From: a virus
Strand: one strand, 5' to 3'
Virus record (IMG/VR): IMGVR_UViG_3300047446_000122
Coordinates: 1-32,216 of that record
DNA length: 32,216 nucleotides
The first letter of the stretch is position 1; each line of letters begins with the position of its first letter. Below are positions 3,494 to 32,216 of this stretch, one piece after another. The position numbers were made by a program, and so were the translations under genes. A model generated the notes under the pieces. The model had not been told where the DNA came from, did no database searches, and worked only from the letters and a program-made list of their open reading frames with translations.

Positions 3494-3901
3494 ATGCAAA
3501 ACAACATCGATCAAACAATGCACTATGTTGCGCTTGGTTTCCTGGCTCAACACCAGGGCGAACACCTCGCGCACGATCGGCCGTTGCTCGTCGAGCGTTG
3601 TGTCGGATACCTGATGGAAAATCACATGCTCTCGAGCCGTGAGGCGGAAATCGTCGCGCTGCAAGCACTCGGCGAATTCGACTCGCGCGGCTGCCGTGCG
3701 TATGTCGATATGTCGCTCACGACGAGTCACAGTGTTTTCGTGCGCGATCCGGCCAACGGCCGCATGCGTGTGTTCACCGTCGCCGAGCTGATCGATCTTG
3801 TTAAGACGCCCGCGCTCGCGAGCCTGCCCGTGCCGAGCACGCGTCGCATGTTCGAGAACGGCCTCAACGACAACGCCCGCGACGCGCAGCTCGCACAGTA
3901 A
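3494..3901 (+). CDS. Hypothetical protein, early operon
   Basis: The 135-residue protein has a GAGGGA ribosome site 8 bases before ATG 3494. I do not recognise a family. It is acidic to neutral, predicted mostly helical (residues 1-65), with a mid segment SHSVFVRDPANGRMRVFTVAELIDL that looks like a beta-hairpin and helix. There is no signal peptide and there are no membrane segments. It lies between ogr and the primase on the same strand, so it is probably a replication or regulatory accessory protein. Confidence 0.65.
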   Translation: MQNNIDQTMHYVALGFLAQHQGEHLAHDRPLLVERCVGYLMENHMLSSREAEIVALQALGEFDSRGCRAYVDMSLTTSHSVFVRDPANGRMRVFTVAELIDLVKTPALASLPVPSTRRMFENGLNDNARDAQLAQ

Positions 3902-3915
3902 GAAATCCCCCGAAC

Positions 3916-3990
3916 ATGACGAACGATGCCGCGCTCGCTGGAGCTGCGGCCGGGGGGAAGTCACGCCCGCGTTTCGCGAACACTGAATAA
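3916..3990 (+). CDS. Possible 24-residue leader peptide before the primase
   Basis: An ATG at 3916 opens a 25-codon frame ending in TAA at 3988-3990, three bases before the primase ATG and in the same frame as it. Neither start has a clear ribosome site, so coupled re-initiation is possible. It could equally be chance. Confidence 0.25.
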   Translation: MTNDAALAGAAAGGKSRPRFANTE

Positions 3991-7806: not shown

Positions 7807-7830
7807 GCCGCCCTCGAGGCGGCTTTTTTT
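7807..7830 (+). terminator. Rightward intrinsic terminator of the replication operon
   Basis: GCCGCC (7807-7812) pairs with GGCGGC (7818-7823) across a five-base loop and is followed by seven Ts (7824-7830). It ends the early/replication operon where it meets the leftward HNH gene. Confidence 0.85.
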
Positions 7831-8141
7831 CATTGCGTCACGATCTGAGCTCGTCGTCGATCGGCTGCAGCTACGGCGAGCCTAAAAGCCGATGCCGCAT
7901 CGCTCACAAGCGCCGCGAGAATATGCGCCTCGATCAAGAGCTCGCGCTCGAGGCAAGCGTCAAGCCGTTCGCCGCCCTTTCTCGCGTTGCAAGGGCGACA
8001 ACTTGCCGTCAAATTGTCCGGATCGTCGCTCCCCCCTTGCACGCGCGGCACGATATGGTCGGCTGAATCCGCCTCGCCCCCGCAATACCGGCATCGATAG
8101 CCGTTCACAAGTAGCACCGCACGCGTTAATCCTGGCCTCAC
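7830..8141 (-). CDS. HNH endonuclease
   Basis: The 103-residue leftward HNH nuclease has a zinc-bound beta-beta-alpha core: CRYCGG near residue 17, the DHIVPRVQGGSDDPDNL catalytic stretch (His29 general base, Asn43), and CRPCNARKGG. It starts at GTG 8141 after a strong AAGGGGG site. Small HNH proteins in many phages act beside terminase or as homing or host-DNA nucleases; the role here is not known. It is the third gene of the parA operon, behind an array of partition-type repeats, and its start region closely copies that of parA (GATACCAAGGGGG versus GATACCAAAGGGG). It could have its own regulation by the partition protein. Confidence 0.85.
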   Translation of the reverse strand: MRPGLTRAVLLVNGYRCRYCGGEADSADHIVPRVQGGSDDPDNLTASCRPCNARKGGERLDACLERELLIEAHILAALVSDAASAFRLAVAAADRRRAQIVTQ

Positions 8142-8152
8142 AAAACCCCCTT

Positions 8153-8190
8153 GGTATCTTGATGCCTTGGCATCAAGGCATCATGGCATC
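8153..8190. repeat. Partition-type repeat array 1 (five hexamers, 8-bp period)
   Basis: GGTATC 8153, GATGCC 8161 (inverted), GGCATC 8169, 8177 and 8185 are exactly 8 bp apart, separated by two-base A/T-rich spacers. The array fills the gap between the ribbon-helix-helix gene and the HNH gene and abuts the HNH ribosome site. Confidence 0.75.
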
Positions 8191-8193
8191 ACA

Positions 8194-8499
8194 TCAACGG
8201 AGTCGCGTGCCTGTCAACGGCGGCAAGCCTTTCGACGCGCGAATCATATTCAAGCCCTGAATAAAGAGCTCTTGCAATGACGTATCGACGCGCATCGCAA
8301 ACTCTTTCGCCTCGTACCATTGTTCGTGCGTCATTCGCACCGGCACGGTTTTAGGCGGCTTGGCCCCGCCCTTTTTGACGGCCGGCTCGAGCTCGAGCTC
8401 GTCGTCGCGCCGCTCGACGGCTGCGGCCGGCGCGCTCGCGTTCGCCGGATTGTTCGCGCTGATTTTCAAGGCGCCAAAACTCGATTTTTTCGTGCTCAC
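8194..8499 (-). CDS. Ribbon-helix-helix centromere-binding protein (ParB/ParG/Omega type)
   Basis: The leftward gene directly follows parA. With GTG 8499, which overlaps the parA stop (GTGA) and has GGAG eight bases upstream, the product is 101 residues; ATG 8520 would add seven. A flexible Ala/Glu-rich N-terminal tail (1-50) precedes a ribbon-helix-helix fold: strand KTVPVRMT, helix EQWYEAKEFAMRV, helix SLQELFIQGLNMIRAS. Size, fold and position match the small partner proteins of type Ib partition systems (ParG, Omega), which bind short phased repeats and repress the operon. The three 8-bp repeat arrays nearby are the likely targets. Sequence identity to named members was not tested. Confidence 0.75.
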   Translation of the reverse strand: MSTKKSSFGALKISANNPANASAPAAAVERRDDELELEPAVKKGGAKPPKTVPVRMTHEQWYEAKEFAMRVDTSLQELFIQGLNMIRASKGLPPLTGTRLR

Positions 8500-9128
8500 T
8501 TCAATCTCTCCATAAGCCATTGATAGACCGCCCTCGCCTCGTCGCGGGCATCTTGCTCGCGCTTGGTCCTGGTTTCTGTGACTGCCCGCCCCGATGACAA
8601 CGCACGCGCATAGGCACGGCGATCCGCAAACATCGCCGCGCACACCGGCGCGATCTCTTTGAGCGTGTCGATCGCCTCGCTCGTTTCCGGCGCCGTCTTA
8701 TCGGCACGGTTCAACACGAACACGAACGGTTTGCCGGCTGCCGTGACGACCGAAAGCGCCGCATTGAGCGCCGCCATGTCGGGGAAAGTTGGCTGCACGG
8801 GCACGACGACGAGATCGGCGACGCCGACGAGCTCGGCCGCGCCGGCGACGATATGCGGCGGGCAATCGACGAACGCCAATTCATAACCCTCGGCCTCGGC
8901 CGACTCAAGCAATTCGCGGATATTCGACGGCGAACCCGGCACGACCGCCGGCTCGTCTTTCTCTCGCCCGCTCGCCCAGGCTTGCCCCGTGCCTTGTCCA
9001 TCGGCATCGATCAACGCGGTTTTGTATTGGTTCGACGCCTCGACGCTCAGGTGTATCGCGGCCGTCGATTTCCCGCTGCCCCCCTTCTGACTGAATACGG
9101 CAATCACCCGCATACGCTTTGTTTTCAT
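8496..9128 (-). CDS. parA: ParA-type Walker partition ATPase
   Basis: From ATG 9128 the product is 210 residues, the size of the small type Ib ParA/ParF proteins; a GTG at 9149 would add seven residues but falls inside the repeat array. The deviant Walker A QKGGSGKST (Lys15 signature, Lys20 nucleotide-binding) follows strand MRVIAVFS; Walker A' (LIDADGQGTG) and Walker B (LAFVDCPPH) follow. The protein forms ATP-dependent dimers on the nucleoid and positions plasmid copies. The AAGGGG ribosome site lies six bases upstream, directly beside array 2. It is first in a leftward operon with the ribbon-helix-helix partner and the HNH gene. It strongly supports a plasmid prophage. Confidence 0.93.
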   Translation of the reverse strand: MKTKRMRVIAVFSQKGGSGKSTAAIHLSVEASNQYKTALIDADGQGTGQAWASGREKDEPAVVPGSPSNIRELLESAEAEGYELAFVDCPPHIVAGAAELVGVADLVVVPVQPTFPDMAALNAALSVVTAAGKPFVFVLNRADKTAPETSEAIDTLKEIAPVCAAMFADRRAYARALSSGRAVTETRTKREQDARDEARAVYQWLMERLK

Positions 9129-9141
9129 GCCAAACCCCTTT

Positions 9142-9171
9142 GGTATCACGGTATCAAAGTATCAAGGTGTC
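9142..9171. repeat. Partition-type repeat array 2 (four hexamers, 8-bp period)
   Basis: GGTATC 9142, GGTATC 9150, AGTATC 9158 and GGTGTC 9166 are 8 bp apart with two-base spacers. The array covers the parA leader up to its ribosome site and includes a leftward TTGACA (9173-9168). Binding here would repress parA. Confidence 0.75.
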
Positions 9172-9207
9172 AAACCCTGAAACCCTTTGTGCGTAAGCAC
9201 TTCCGGC

Positions 9208-9216
9208 ATTTTAGCA
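9208..9216 (-). promoter_or_regulatory. Candidate parA promoter, extended -10
   Basis: Read leftward, TGCTAAAAT (9216-9208) is an extended -10 motif lying between arrays 2 and 3. Its -35 region would fall inside array 3, so the centromere-binding protein could control it directly. Confidence 0.4.
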
Positions 9217-9217
9217 T

Positions 9218-9263
9218 GGTACTTTGATGCCTTGGCACTTTGGTATCACGGCATCATGGCATC
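9218..9263. repeat. Partition-type repeat array 3 (six hexamers, 8-bp period)
   Basis: GGTACT 9218, GATGCC 9226 (inverted), GGCACT 9234, GGTATC 9242, GGCATC 9250 and GGCATC 9258 keep an exact 8-bp period. This is the largest array and the best candidate for the plasmid centromere (parS). Confidence 0.75.
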
Positions 9264-10535: not shown

Positions 10536-10540
10536 GCTAT

Positions 10541-10598
10541 TCGGACATTTCTGCGGTTTCATCGGACATTTTTGCGGTTTATCGGACATTTTTGCGGT
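10541..10598 (+). repeat. Three rep iterons upstream of rep
   Basis: TCGGACATTTYTGCGGT occurs at 10541, 10562 and 10582 (spacing 21 and 20 bp), all in the same orientation. These are typical binding sites for a Rep_3-type initiator. Inverted half-copies (TCGGAC / GTCCGA) recur in the rep promoter. Confidence 0.9.
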
Positions 10599-10599
10599 G

Positions 10600-10632
10600 C
10601 TATCCACAGGCCCGCGACGCAACTTATCCACA
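10600..10632 (+). promoter_or_regulatory. DnaA boxes of the plasmid origin
   Basis: TTATCCACA at 10624-10632 is a perfect consensus DnaA box; CTATCCACA at 10600-10608 matches 8 of 9. They directly follow the three iterons, the standard arrangement of an iteron-type oriV. Confidence 0.85.
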
Positions 10633-10648
10633 AGGCATATCAGGACAC

Positions 10649-10703
10649 TTGACCGACAATGTGCGAATGTGCACAATTCGGACTTCGTTTTTTGTTGTCC
10701 GAA
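10649..10703 (+). promoter_or_regulatory. rep promoter with inverted-repeat operator
   Basis: TTGACC 10649-10654 and CACAAT 10672-10677 are 17 bp apart. TTCGGAC 10677-10683 and GTCCGAA 10697-10703 form an inverted repeat over the transcription start; a further GTCCGAA reaches the start codon at 10717-10723. Because these are half-iterons, Rep dimers probably repress their own gene. Confidence 0.55.
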
Positions 10704-10722
10704 TAACCGCAAGGGTGTCCGA

Positions 10723-11481
10723 ATGAAGAAACCACGCGCCGCGCTGACGATGAACCCCGACGCGCCGATCGCCGAGAAAAAAGTGAACATGAGCAACGCG
10801 CTCACGCGTGCGGCGCATAGCCTCTTGCTCGCTGAAAAGCGCCTGATCTCGGCGTGCATTTCCAAGATCGATTCAATGCCGGCCGGCATGCCGATCGTGC
10901 AGCATGGCGCCTGGACCGTTCGACTATCGGCGGCCGAGTATGCCGAGGCGTTCGATGTTGATCTCGATACGGCTTACACGCAGCTCAGAGACGCGAGCGA
11001 AAAGCTCTTTAATCGTTACGTGCGTTCGACGCGCGAGACGCGCAAGGGCATCGAGGAACATAAGTTTCGATGGGTCGGGGGCGTCAAGTATCACAAGGGT
11101 GAGGGATGGGTCGAGCTGCACTGGTGGCATGAAGTCGTGCCGCACCTGTACGGGCTGCGCAAAGAATTCACGTCCTATAAGCTCAAGCAAGCGGCGGCAC
11201 TGCGCTCGGCTTATAGCTGGCGCCTGTTCGAATGTTTTCAGTCATGGAAGGCGACCGGCTGCTATATGCCGACGATCGAGGATTTTCAACGCGCGATGGA
11301 CGTGCCGAAAAGTTGTGTCGCCGACTTCAAAGCCCTGCGCGTTCGTGTGATCGAGCCCGCTGTGAAAGAGCTGCGCGAAAAGAACGGCCTCGAAATTGAA
11401 TGGGACACGCGCCGCGCCGGCCGCAAAGTGATCGGCTTGCAATTCAATTTCAAGCCGGACCCACAAACGACGCTGTTTTGA
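10723..11481 (+). CDS. rep: Rep_3-family plasmid replication initiator
   Basis: The 252-residue protein has the two winged-helix layout of iteron-binding initiators (RepE, Pi, RepA). The N-terminal signature is VNMSNALTRAAHSLLLAEKR followed by LISACISKI; then come LSAAEYAEAFDVDLDTAYTQ, a central YKLKQAAALRSAYSWRLFEC, and the second winged helix TIEDFQRAMDVPKSCVADFK. ATG 10723 has AAGGG seven bases upstream. It binds the iterons at 10541-10598 and probably the inverted pair at 11486-11563, recruits DnaA and helicase, and should repress itself through the half-sites in its promoter. It replaces P2 gene A, the rolling-circle nickase, which is not seen in this genome. Confidence 0.93.
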   Translation: MKKPRAALTMNPDAPIAEKKVNMSNALTRAAHSLLLAEKRLISACISKIDSMPAGMPIVQHGAWTVRLSAAEYAEAFDVDLDTAYTQLRDASEKLFNRYVRSTRETRKGIEEHKFRWVGGVKYHKGEGWVELHWWHEVVPHLYGLRKEFTSYKLKQAAALRSAYSWRLFECFQSWKATGCYMPTIEDFQRAMDVPKSCVADFKALRVRVIEPAVKELREKNGLEIEWDTRRAGRKVIGLQFNFKPDPQTTLF

Positions 11482-28724: not shown

Positions 28725-31249
28725 CGATGGCGAACGATCTGAAACTGCGCGTGCTGTTTGATATGGTGGACGGGGCGACTCGGCCGATCCGCAACATCAT
28801 GAGCGGCAACAAGGGGCTCGCCAAGTCGCTAAAAGAGTCGCGCGTCGAGCTCGGCAAGCTACAGGCCGCGCAAAAGGACGTGGCCGCGTTTCGCGATATG
28901 CGCGTCGGCCTGGTGAGCGCGAAACGCGACATGCAATCCGCGCAAGCGCGCGTCGCCGAGCTGGCGCGCGCAATTGAGACGACCGACGCGCCGACGAAAA
29001 AGATGCGCGCCGAATTCGAGCGCGCCAAGCGCACGGCCGCGCAGCTCGCCCAGGCGCACGACACCCAGGCGACGAAAGTGCGCGAGCTGCGCGATCGCCT
29101 CACGGGCGCCGGCATCGACACGCGCAACCTCTCGCAACACGAGCGCACCTTGCGCTCGTCGATCGCCGAGACTACGGCCGCGATGGGCGCGCAGCAACAA
29201 CGGCTTGCCGATCTCACGGCCCGCACGAAGCGCCTCGGCGAAGCCCGCGAGCGCATGAACAAGACGAAAGAGCTCGGCGGCAAGATGGCCGGCACCGGCG
29301 TGCGCATGATGGCCGGCGGCGCCGCGATCGGCGCGGGCACGATCGTGCCGATCGCCGAGTATGCAAAGGCCGAGGATTCGGCGACGCAGCTCTCGAGCGC
29401 GCTGATGCGCGCCGGCGGCGTCGTGCCCCCTGAATTCGAAAAGATCAACGCGCTCGCGATGAAACTCGGCGACCGGCTGCCCGGTACGACCTCGGATTTT
29501 CAGGACATGATGACGATGCTGACCCGCCAGGGTATCAGCGCGCAATCGATCCTCGGCGGCATGGGCGAAGCGACGGCCTATCTCGGCGTGCAGCTCAAAA
29601 AGACGCCGGCCGAGGCGGCCGAATTCACGGCCAAGCTGCAAGACGCCACACGCACGACCGAGAAAGACATGCTCTCGTTGACGGACGTGATCCAAAAAGC
29701 ATTCATGCTCGGCGTTGACGACAACAACATGCTGCAGGGTTTCGCCAAGCTCGGCCCCGCGATGGACACGATCAAGCAAAAGGGCATCGAGGGCGCGAAA
29801 GCCCTCGCGCCGTTGCTCGTGATGGCGGATCAATCGGGCATGGAAGGAAGCGCGGCCGGCAATGCCTATCGGAAGGTGTTCCAGCTCGGGTTAGATGCGA
29901 AGAAAGTCGGCAAGGCGAACAAGCAACTCGCCCCCGCTCAACGCCTGGATTTCACGAACGGCAAAGGCGAATTCGGCGGGCTCGATAAGATGTTCGCCCA
30001 ATTCGAAAAGCTCAAGACGCTCAACACGCAAAAGCGCCTCGGCGTGTTGAAAGAAGTGTTCGGAGACGACGCCGAAACGCTGCAAGTGATTTCCCTGATG
30101 ATCGAAAAGGGAAAGGCCGGCTATGACGAAGTGCAAGCCAAGATGGCCGCGCAAGCGTCGATGCAAGAGCGCGTGAATAAGCAACTCGGCACACTGAAAA
30201 ATCTTTGGGAGGCGGCCGGCGGCACTTTCACGAATGGCCTCGTCGCGTTCGGCGAGTCTGTCGCGCCCGAGGCGAAAGCCGTTGTCGAATGGCTCGGCGA
30301 TATGTCGCAACGCATGGGCGCATGGGCGCGCGAGAATCCGCGGCTCGCCGGCGGCCTGATGAAATTCGCCGCAATCATGGCAATCGTGATGACCGTGATC
30401 GGCGGCTTGCTCGTCGTGCTCGGCGCGCTGATGGCGCCGATCGGCGCGATCGCATTCGCATTCACTGCTGTCGGCGGGGCGGCCCTGGCAACTATCGCCA
30501 CATTCGCGGGCGTGGCGATCGGCATTGTCGCGGCGATCACGGCCGTCGCCGTCGCCGTCTATACCTACTGGGAGCCGATCAAGGGATTTTTCGCCGGCCT
30601 ATGGGACCAGGTAAGGCAAGCATTCGCCGGCGGCCTGGCGGGCGTCGCCGCGCTCGTGCTCAATTGGTCCCCGCTCGGCTTGTTCTATTCCGCATTCGCG
30701 GCCGTGTTGCAATGGTTCGGCATCGACATGCCGGCGCGTTTCACTGAATTCGGAAGCAACCTTATCGCCGGCCTCGTCAACGGCATTACTTCCGGCATCG
30801 GCGCCGTGCAAGCGGCGATCACGAACGTCGCATCAAGCACGGTCGGATGGTTCAAGGAAAAGCTCGGCATTCATAGCCCCTCGCGCGTGTTCGGCGAGCT
30901 CGGCGGATTCATCACCCAGGGCGCCGCGATCGGCATGGACGGCGAGAAAGCGCGCATCGCGAAAGCGGCTGTCGGCCTGGCGACGCTCGCGGCGACGAGT
31001 TTCGCGGGCGCCAATGGCCCCGACACGCCCCTCGGCGGCCCTGGGATAGCCGTTGACACTCGCCCCGCCCTCGCATCGCGCCCTGCGGCCGGAAAATCGG
31101 CCGGCGGCGCATCGGCGGCCGGCGGCGACACGTATGTGTTTCACATCAACGGCGGCGACGGCAAGGCGATCGCCGAGCAAATTCGCGTCGAGCTGGAAAA
31201 GATCGAGCGCCAGAAGCGCGCGAGCGCCGGCTCACGCCTGTCGGATTAA
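28721..31249 (+). CDS. T: Tail tape measure protein T
   Basis: The 842-residue tail length ruler (P2 gpT 815) starts in an ATGA overlap with E'. The N-terminal ~180 residues are coiled coil with RVLFDMVDGATRPIRNIMSG. A TP901/tape-measure core follows at about 190-480 (TTSDFQDMMTMLTRQGISAQ; GSAAGNAYRKVFQLGLDAKK). A long hydrophobic region at about 545-620 holds several membrane-like segments, followed by GIHSPSRVFGELGGFITQGA. It sets tail length and may enter the inner membrane during injection. Confidence 0.96.
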   Translation: MTMANDLKLRVLFDMVDGATRPIRNIMSGNKGLAKSLKESRVELGKLQAAQKDVAAFRDMRVGLVSAKRDMQSAQARVAELARAIETTDAPTKKMRAEFERAKRTAAQLAQAHDTQATKVRELRDRLTGAGIDTRNLSQHERTLRSSIAETTAAMGAQQQRLADLTARTKRLGEARERMNKTKELGGKMAGTGVRMMAGGAAIGAGTIVPIAEYAKAEDSATQLSSALMRAGGVVPPEFEKINALAMKLGDRLPGTTSDFQDMMTMLTRQGISAQSILGGMGEATAYLGVQLKKTPAEAAEFTAKLQDATRTTEKDMLSLTDVIQKAFMLGVDDNNMLQGFAKLGPAMDTIKQKGIEGAKALAPLLVMADQSGMEGSAAGNAYRKVFQLGLDAKKVGKANKQLAPAQRLDFTNGKGEFGGLDKMFAQFEKLKTLNTQKRLGVLKEVFGDDAETLQVISLMIEKGKAGYDEVQAKMAAQASMQERVNKQLGTLKNLWEAAGGTFTNGLVAFGESVAPEAKAVVEWLGDMSQRMGAWARENPRLAGGLMKFAAIMAIVMTVIGGLLVVLGALMAPIGAIAFAFTAVGGAALATIATFAGVAIGIVAAITAVAVAVYTYWEPIKGFFAGLWDQVRQAFAGGLAGVAALVLNWSPLGLFYSAFAAVLQWFGIDMPARFTEFGSNLIAGLVNGITSGIGAVQAAITNVASSTVGWFKEKLGIHSPSRVFGELGGFITQGAAIGMDGEKARIAKAAVGLATLAATSFAGANGPDTPLGGPGIAVDTRPALASRPAAGKSAGGASAAGGDTYVFHINGGDGKAIAEQIRVELEKIERQKRASAGSRLSD

Positions 31250-31264
31250 ACGGAGAAAGGAAAG

Positions 31265-31690
31265 ATGCTGGCGTGCCTCGGGCAATTCGTTTTCGACCTC
31301 ACCAACCTCTCGTATCAAGAGCTGCAGCGCCGCACGAGCTGGAAGCATGCGAGCACGTCGCGCGTCGGCGGGCGCAACGCGCGGCAATTCACCGGCCCAG
31401 GCGACGATTCGATCACTCTAAGCGGCTGGTTTGCACCCGGCCAAATCGGCGGCAAGCTCGCCTCGTTGACCGAGCTGCGCAACATGGGCGACGCCGGCGA
31501 AGCGTATGCGCTCGTCGATGGCACGGGCTCGGTTTATGGCGCGTTCGTGATCGAAGGGCTCGACGAGGGGCAATCGCTGCACACCAACAACGGCACGCCG
31601 TTGCGCGTCGAATTCACGCTCAACCTCATGCGCGTCGATGACGGACTCGTTAAGACCAAGACGGACGTGAACAAGAAGGCCGACACATGA
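31265..31690 (+). CDS. U: Tail protein U
   Basis: The 141-residue protein is P2 gpU, a tail-end protein: LACLGQFVFDLTNLSYQELQ, RTSWKHASTSRVGGRNARQF, GDDSITLSGWFAPGQIGG. It has an AAAGGAAAG ribosome site and overlaps D by four bases. Confidence 0.96.
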   Translation: MLACLGQFVFDLTNLSYQELQRRTSWKHASTSRVGGRNARQFTGPGDDSITLSGWFAPGQIGGKLASLTELRNMGDAGEAYALVDGTGSVYGAFVIEGLDEGQSLHTNNGTPLRVEFTLNLMRVDDGLVKTKTDVNKKADT

Positions 31691-32216
31691 AGCAACCGAC
31701 TCCGATCGCGCAAATCACCCTCGACGGCCGCGATCTCACGAGCAAGATCGCGCCGCGCCTCATTACCCTCGGCCTGTCCGAATCGCGGAGCGACGAAGCC
31801 GACACGCTCGATCTCACGCTCTCCGACTCGCAAGGCGATCTCGCTATACCCGCTCGAGGCGCATTGCTGCGCGTCGCGTTTGGATGGGATGACACGGGGC
31901 TCGTCGATAAGGGCTCTTTTACCGTCGATGAAGTCGAGCACTCGGGCTCGCCCGATACGCTCGTGATCCGCGCGCGATCGGCGTCGATTACGAAGGAGCT
32001 CGGCGAGCGCATCGAAAGGAGCTGGCACGGCGAGACGATCGGCTCAATCGTTCGCAAGATCGCCGGCAAGCACAAGCTCAAGCCGGCGATCGCCGATGCC
32101 CTCTCGAAAGTCGCGATCGCGCACATCGACCAAACGCACGAGAGCGATCTTTCGTTTCTCACGCGCCTCGCAAAGCGTTATGACGCCGTGATGAACGTGA
32201 AAGACACGAACTTGCT
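31687..32216 (+). CDS. D: Late control protein D, N-terminal part (continues at window start)
   Basis: ATG 31687 overlaps the U stop. The frame encodes IAQITLDGRDLTSKIAPRLI, then DEVEHSGSPDTLVIRARSAS, then RSWHGETIGSIVRKIAGKHK, the hallmark of P2 gpD, and runs off the window end into the frame that resumes at position 128 after the 127-base overlap. The whole protein is 345 residues. Confidence 0.96.
   Translation, partial: MKQPTPIAQITLDGRDLTSKIAPRLITLGLSESRSDEADTLDLTLSDSQGDLAIPARGALLRVAFGWDDTGLVDKGSFTVDEVEHSGSPDTLVIRARSASITKELGERIERSWHGETIGSIVRKIAGKHKLKPAIADALSKVAIAHIDQTHESDLSFLTRLAKRYDAVMNVKDTNL
32090..32216. repeat. Terminal direct repeat, copy 2
   Basis: Identical to 1-127. Removing one copy leaves a circle of 32,089 bp. 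Confidence 0.95.

Follow-up and report, generated by a model that had tools for sequence, protein, structure and literature searches.

We found that the window, by which we mean the whole 32,216-nucleotide stretch that was analysed (IMG/VR virus record IMGVR_UViG_3300047446_000122), carries three arrays of short hexamers around an operon for a ParA-type ATPase and a small ParB protein. These arrays are very probably the centromere of a type Ib partition cassette, in which ParA is paired with a ribbon-helix-helix (RHH) ParB, in a Burkholderia phage that is probably maintained as a plasmid.

The window as a probable KS14-like phage-plasmid genome

The two ends of the window share 127 bp (positions 1-127 and 32090-32216), and this terminal redundancy indicates that the record is a complete genome, circular and about 32,089 bp (~32.1 kb) in length. 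Among Burkholderia phages, FLC10 has a Rep3 initiator about 82% identical to that of the window and KS14 has one that is 66.5% identical; both phages belong to Kisquattuordecimvirus (Peduoviridae). As in the phage-plasmids of that genus, P2-like structural genes, a Rep3-type initiator and a par locus are found together on a circle of ~32 kb, the P2-like phage backbone being recognised from the presence of portal-like and primase homologues. Judged by this gene content, the window is probably the genome of a KS14-like phage-plasmid (Kisquattuordecimvirus, Peduoviridae). KS14 itself has been recovered from lysogens as a plasmid and is reported to be a plasmid prophage (PMC3091744), and maintenance of the window phage as a plasmid would be expected from its relatives, its Rep gene and the circular record.

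The Rep3 initiator gene lies at 10597-11481, 1.5 kb from the arrays. Immediately before it, at 10537-10597, there are three direct repeats of ~20 bp (TTTATCGGACATTTTTGCGG), which are likely replication iterons. At the other side of the par locus, just downstream of the first array, is a gene for a small HNH endonuclease (7830-8141, minus strand); it is also present in L002/L009 and L003/L010 and was not found in L004-L008 or L011.

The parA and parB genes

The parA gene (8496-9128, minus strand) codes for a 210-residue deviant-Walker partition ATPase with the motif KGGSGKST near its N terminus. It matched the Pfam families AAA_31 (2.4e-13) and CbiA (3.6e-12), the PHROG ParA-like partition protein (1.5e-34) and, at 6.6e-42, which is below that model's cut-off, the NCBIfam ParA_partition model. 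This is a short Walker-type ParA without an N-terminal DNA-binding domain, as is found in type Ib systems. The parB gene (8194-8499, minus strand) overlaps parA by 4 nt (GTGA) and codes for a protein of 101 residues, with an RHH-like C-terminal domain predicted at about residues 49-97; this size and the 4-nt overlap fit the small ParB of type Ib. When ParB was aligned with its relatives (alignment A1), it could be seen to comprise a conserved N-terminal MSTKKxxFxxLKI, a linker of variable length and a conserved C-terminal block. In one relative (L010, parB linker at 3630-3980) the linker includes several copies of the peptide VEHE, which correspond to 12-bp tandem repeats in the gene.

The earlier note on this DNA had taken the 101-residue protein to be of the RHH class, and this assignment was borne out in part. 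The C-terminal block matched, in a profile-profile comparison, a profile of plasmid ParB-like proteins (A2; probability 93.8, E 1.7e-7) that was built from the products of small genes following parA on Nitrosomonas, Comamonas, Zymomonas and Thiothrix plasmids and in one Burkholderiales genome. Pfam Antitox_RHH was in turn matched at 1.5e-5 by the A2 member from L043, which falls just short of the curated cut-off, and at 2.1e-15 by a Komagataeibacter plasmid protein encoded at the same gene position. The direct match of window ParB to Antitox_RHH was weak, however (E 0.033), its AlphaFold2 model was poor (mean pLDDT 64, one long helix), and a ParB profile found no counterpart among PDB sequences at E 10. 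On the basis of the profile match to A2, an RHH fold for ParB is likely.

Three hexamer arrays with an exact 8-bp step

The fifteen hexamers previously described as three arrays of five, four and six copies with an exact 8-bp step were all recovered, two of them inverted (8161 and 9226). All three arrays keep the step exactly, with two-base spacers. Array 1 (8153-8190), a putative downstream centromere, starts directly past the parB stop codon and comprises five units at 8153, 8161, 8169, 8177 and 8185, which read, in order, GGTATC, GATGCC (inverted) and three times GGCATC. Array 2 (9142-9171), a putative operator and centromere, has four units (GGTATC, GGTATC, AGTATC and GGTGTC), and the parA start codon is 13 bp beyond its end. 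Array 3 (9218-9263), a putative upstream centromere, lies ~90-135 bp upstream of the parA start codon and has six units (GGTACT, GATGCC, GGCACT, GGTATC, GGCATC and GGCATC), of which those at 9218 and 9234 are degenerate and that at 9226 is inverted. The consensus GGYATC is matched exactly by 11 of the 15 hexamers, with one mismatch by two (AGTATC and GGTGTC) and with two mismatches by the remaining two (GGTACT and GGCACT). Since the starts of arrays 2 and 3 are 76 bp apart, these two arrays do not share an 8-bp register.

The three arrays are far above chance expectation. At the 8-bp step the window has exact runs of 5 and 3 units and, when one mismatch per unit is allowed, runs of 5 and 4. 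Order-1 Markov simulation of the window, repeated 400 times, reached at most 2 units for exact runs and at most 3 with one mismatch. When the period was varied from 6 to 19, the longest exact run was 5 at a period of 8 and 1-2 at the others, except for 3 at a period of 16, and no further 8-bp hexamer runs were found elsewhere in the whole window. Similarly, the lag spectrum upstream of window parA gave z 7.4 at lag 8 and z -0.8 at lag 7.

Between arrays 2 and 3 we identified by eye a candidate extended -10 element of the parAB promoter (TGCTAAAAT, 9208-9216, minus strand), and the -35 element of this putative promoter would fall within array 3. The candidate element (TGCTARAAT) is kept in L004-L008 and not clearly in L009-L011; a scan with the sigma-70 consensus found no promoter. 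A near-palindrome (GTGCGTAAGCAC) is also present between the two arrays at 9189-9200, again kept in L004-L008 and not in L009-L011, and is possibly a leader or operator element.

The arrays accompany the par genes

Eight IMG/VR loci (L004-L011) encode a ParA and a ParB of the window type (74-87% and 62-79% identical, respectively), L011 probably being one and the same contig as L012 (Paraburkholderia bryophila LMG 23644). It can be seen that all eight keep this three-array layout, with one array upstream of parA, a second immediately in front of parA and a third that directly follows parB. The second of these is the most conserved, with four units in every relative when degenerate units are counted; the third ranges from 5 to 7 units, a further upstream array is present in L010 and L011, and the changes in array length among relatives are mostly of whole 8-bp units. 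Loss of the arrays from relatives that keep both genes had been named beforehand as the finding that would count against a link between the two; every relative that we found with both genes keeps them. A scan of a genome collection gave Paraburkholderia bryophila LMG 23644 as the only match; phages searched with the DNA of the par region, and phages and plasmids searched with the ParB protein, gave none. From 398 genomes of the family to which P. bryophila belongs, a profile search returned one weak frame with a stop codon (L088) and no convincing 8-bp array, and no convincing array was seen at a distant viral match (L086).

Sibling phages with other par genes gave a different picture. L015-L017 have a Rep that is 87-92% identical to that of the window, yet they carry a KS14-type ParA/ParB pair together with 11-bp arrays, and this type of pair is also found in L019, L020, L024, L025, FLC10 and KS14 itself. 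KS14 and FLC10 resemble the window in their genus-type backbone, their Rep family and their pairing of a ParA with a small RHH protein (that of KS14 matches Pfam RHH_1 at 7.1e-5); they differ from it in that KS14-type ParA is only 27% identical to window ParA, their ParB has no detectable similarity to window ParB and their arrays have an 11-bp step. In KS14 (L013) these 11-bp repeats, which are GTTGATATCAA-like, lie at 1313-1410 and 2083-2130, and similar repeats are present in L015-L017, L019, L020, L024, L025 and FLC10 (L032). The arrays before parA and between parA and parB gave a combined z of 19.4 at lag 11 and 13.6 at lag 22, values that also take in L021 and L022 and are inflated because many of the loci are close kin (L025 and L013 are both KS14). 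Among eleven loci with other par genes there was no three-unit 8-bp run, apart from one three-unit, one-mismatch run when the whole 32.9-kb FLC10 genome was scanned. Upstream of parA in L021 and L022, whose ParA is about 73% identical to that of KS14, we noted a third kind of array that is rich in CATGTG/CATGCG, with lags of 6/18/24 or 13.

In L006-L008 the reverse applies, a ParA of the window type (87%) and 8-bp arrays occurring there with a Rep that is only 39% identical. The type of array thus tracks the par genes and not Rep, which indicates that the arrays travel with the par cassette rather than with the phage backbone, and this is the behaviour expected of a centromere. Short phased repeats near the operon and linked to the par genes are, moreover, what is found in type Ib systems. 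The proposal that the arrays form a centromere is therefore well supported, since they flank parA and the small parB gene and are absent from siblings with another pair.

A possible mode of action and alternatives to it

By analogy with known type Ib systems, ParB would form RHH dimers, each of which would place a two-stranded ribbon into the major groove of one hexamer, and neighbouring dimers would sit cooperatively every 8 bp, the step setting the contacts between dimers. Type Ib RHH proteins bind direct and inverted repeats comparably through the pseudo-symmetry of the dimer, as shown for Omega (PMC5016525), and the two-fold symmetry of an RHH dimer should likewise make the orientation of a hexamer immaterial here. 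Arrays 3 and 2 flank the likely parAB promoter and precede the parA ribosome-binding site, so that their filling may repress parAB, while array 1, behind parB, would be a second centromere cluster. Proteins of this kind repress their own operon, and their flexible N-terminal tail has been implicated in stimulation of ParA (PMC5016525); on filled arrays the conserved N-terminal tail of ParB might correspondingly stimulate the ATPase of nucleoid-bound ParA, which would move and space the phage-plasmids such that one copy reaches each daughter cell. In pSM19035, full stimulation of the ParA ATPase needs at least four contiguous repeats (PMC9499535), a requirement that each of the window arrays, with four units or more, would fit.

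A potential explanation that would place the true centromere elsewhere is that the arrays are operators only, bound by ParB or by another RHH repressor that controls parAB and the HNH gene. Arrays 2 and 3 do bracket the promoter region, array 1 adjoins the HNH gene, and autorepression is an established property of RHH partition proteins (PMC5016525). However, fifteen sites in three places that vary in number by whole repeats are seldom needed for an operator, the ~20-bp set that immediately precedes rep accounts for the other repeats that we saw in the stretch from the arrays to rep, and the centromere and operator boxes of known type Ib systems are of the same kind (PMC5016525). We consider this explanation improbable.

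Less credible still is that the arrays are iterons for the Rep3 initiator. Iterons are short phased repeats and the initiator is near enough for the idea to be raised, but rep has its own separate set of ~20-bp repeats, and phages with a Rep 87-92% identical lack 8-bp arrays while phages with a Rep 39% identical have them; as the arrays do not follow Rep type, we rejected this reading. Neutral tandem repeats that have grown by slippage and have no function would account for unit numbers that vary between relatives mostly by whole 8-bp steps. They would not account for three places kept down to ~62% ParB identity, for inverted units that stay in phase or for confinement to one par type, and we give this possibility just as little credence. 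A type Ib centromere thus remains the preferred reading of the arrays.

Comparison with known partition systems

The ParF-ParG-parH system of TP228 (type Ib) likewise has a ParA-type ATPase, a small RHH protein and upstream direct and inverted repeats. Upstream of a TP228-type parF (the IncX1 copy in NZ_CP091674) we found lag peaks at 8, 16 and 24 (z 4.4, 3.5 and 3.0). The TP228 boxes are ACTC/GAGT-like with AT-rich spacers, in contrast to GGYATC in the window, and TP228 ParA is 29% identical to window ParA over 126 residues; the searches that we ran did not link window ParB to ParG, the Pfam search giving no ParG match. The delta-omega-parS system of pSM19035 also has an RHH protein that acts on short repeats, tightly phased and present in either orientation (PMC9499535, PMC5016525). 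Its step is 7 bp, however, and its two genes are transcribed separately, whereas in the window the two par genes overlap and the arrays keep an 8-bp step; the window therefore lacks the heptad step of the Omega family. On the Psychrobacter plasmid pP62BP1 (type Ib), a parA-parB operon is preceded by seventeen adjacent 8-bp repeats (AATACTCA), called only putative in that report (PMC3346939), which differ from those of the window in being all direct, identical and of another sequence. Clusters on both sides of parAB, as in the window, are described for the parC1-parA-parB-parC2 layout of pB171 par2 (PMC4270457).

Closer counterparts were seen on two conventional plasmids, as opposed to phages. 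Nitrosomonas eutropha C91 plasmid p1 and Laribacter pHLHK22 encode a ParA 39-40% identical to that of the window and a ParB of the profile-matched family, and both have 8-bp arrays, although the hexamers differ from the window's. The Laribacter motifs are TATGACGC/CATAGCGT. The par locus of Nitrosomonas p1 (L033) holds two different 8-bp motifs, with eleven perfect copies of TGAAACCA before parA and 5.75 copies of CATGCAAC, likewise perfect, after the small ParB gene.

The 8-bp step at other ParA loci

We surveyed 18 other loci, on plasmids and phages, that pair a ParA with a small ParB, comprising hits to window ParA and one TP228-type parFG, by measuring base identity per lag in the non-coding flanks, with coding and shuffled sequences as controls. 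In this sample, which is small, chosen by ParA similarity and unweighted for phylogeny, the combined z was 12.1 at lag 8, 10.7 at lag 16 and 7.6 at lag 24, and at most 2.6 at every other lag. Removal of the four strongest loci left z 6.2 at lag 8, and the coding and shuffled controls gave no signal at that lag. Lag 8 was the best among lags 5-14 in 14 of the 18 loci, and the other four peaked elsewhere, none strongly. The repeat motifs themselves vary between the surveyed loci (TGAAACCA, CATGCAAC and TATGACGC are examples).

The earlier note had contrasted the 8-bp step with the 7 bp of Omega and suggested a distinct centromere code. This suggestion is contradicted by the 8-bp step of TP228-type parFG, by the seventeen repeats of pP62BP1 (PMC3346939) and by the 18-locus survey. 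The window cassette is thus ordinary in kind, the 8-bp step being already usual for such systems. What is mildly new is that the 8-bp register seems to extend across the family and that sibling phage-plasmids swap par cassettes of differing register. With slightly more doubt than conviction, we put forward a joint reading in which the 8-bp register is general for a ParA with a small RHH-like ParB and sibling phages swap par cassettes as incompatibility types. The register would then be set by the packing of neighbouring dimers, whatever the sequence of the hexamer, and the swapped cassettes would differ in register or motif (8 bp; 11 bp; CATGTG-rich in L021 and L022) independently of the replication gene.

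Siblings with a related rep and different par genes provide a ready-made comparison for asking if the type of partition system determines which phage-plasmids can share a cell, and an 8-bp phase is a simple rule that can help to locate centromeres beside parA on many plasmids. The arrays also give an annotated partition-site candidate for a genus of P2-like phage-plasmids in which the par genes are partly labelled hypothetical. In FLC10, gp42 (30878-31192) and gp43 (31230-31880) are annotated as hypothetical proteins and correspond to a KS14-type ParB (73%) and ParA (89%), respectively.
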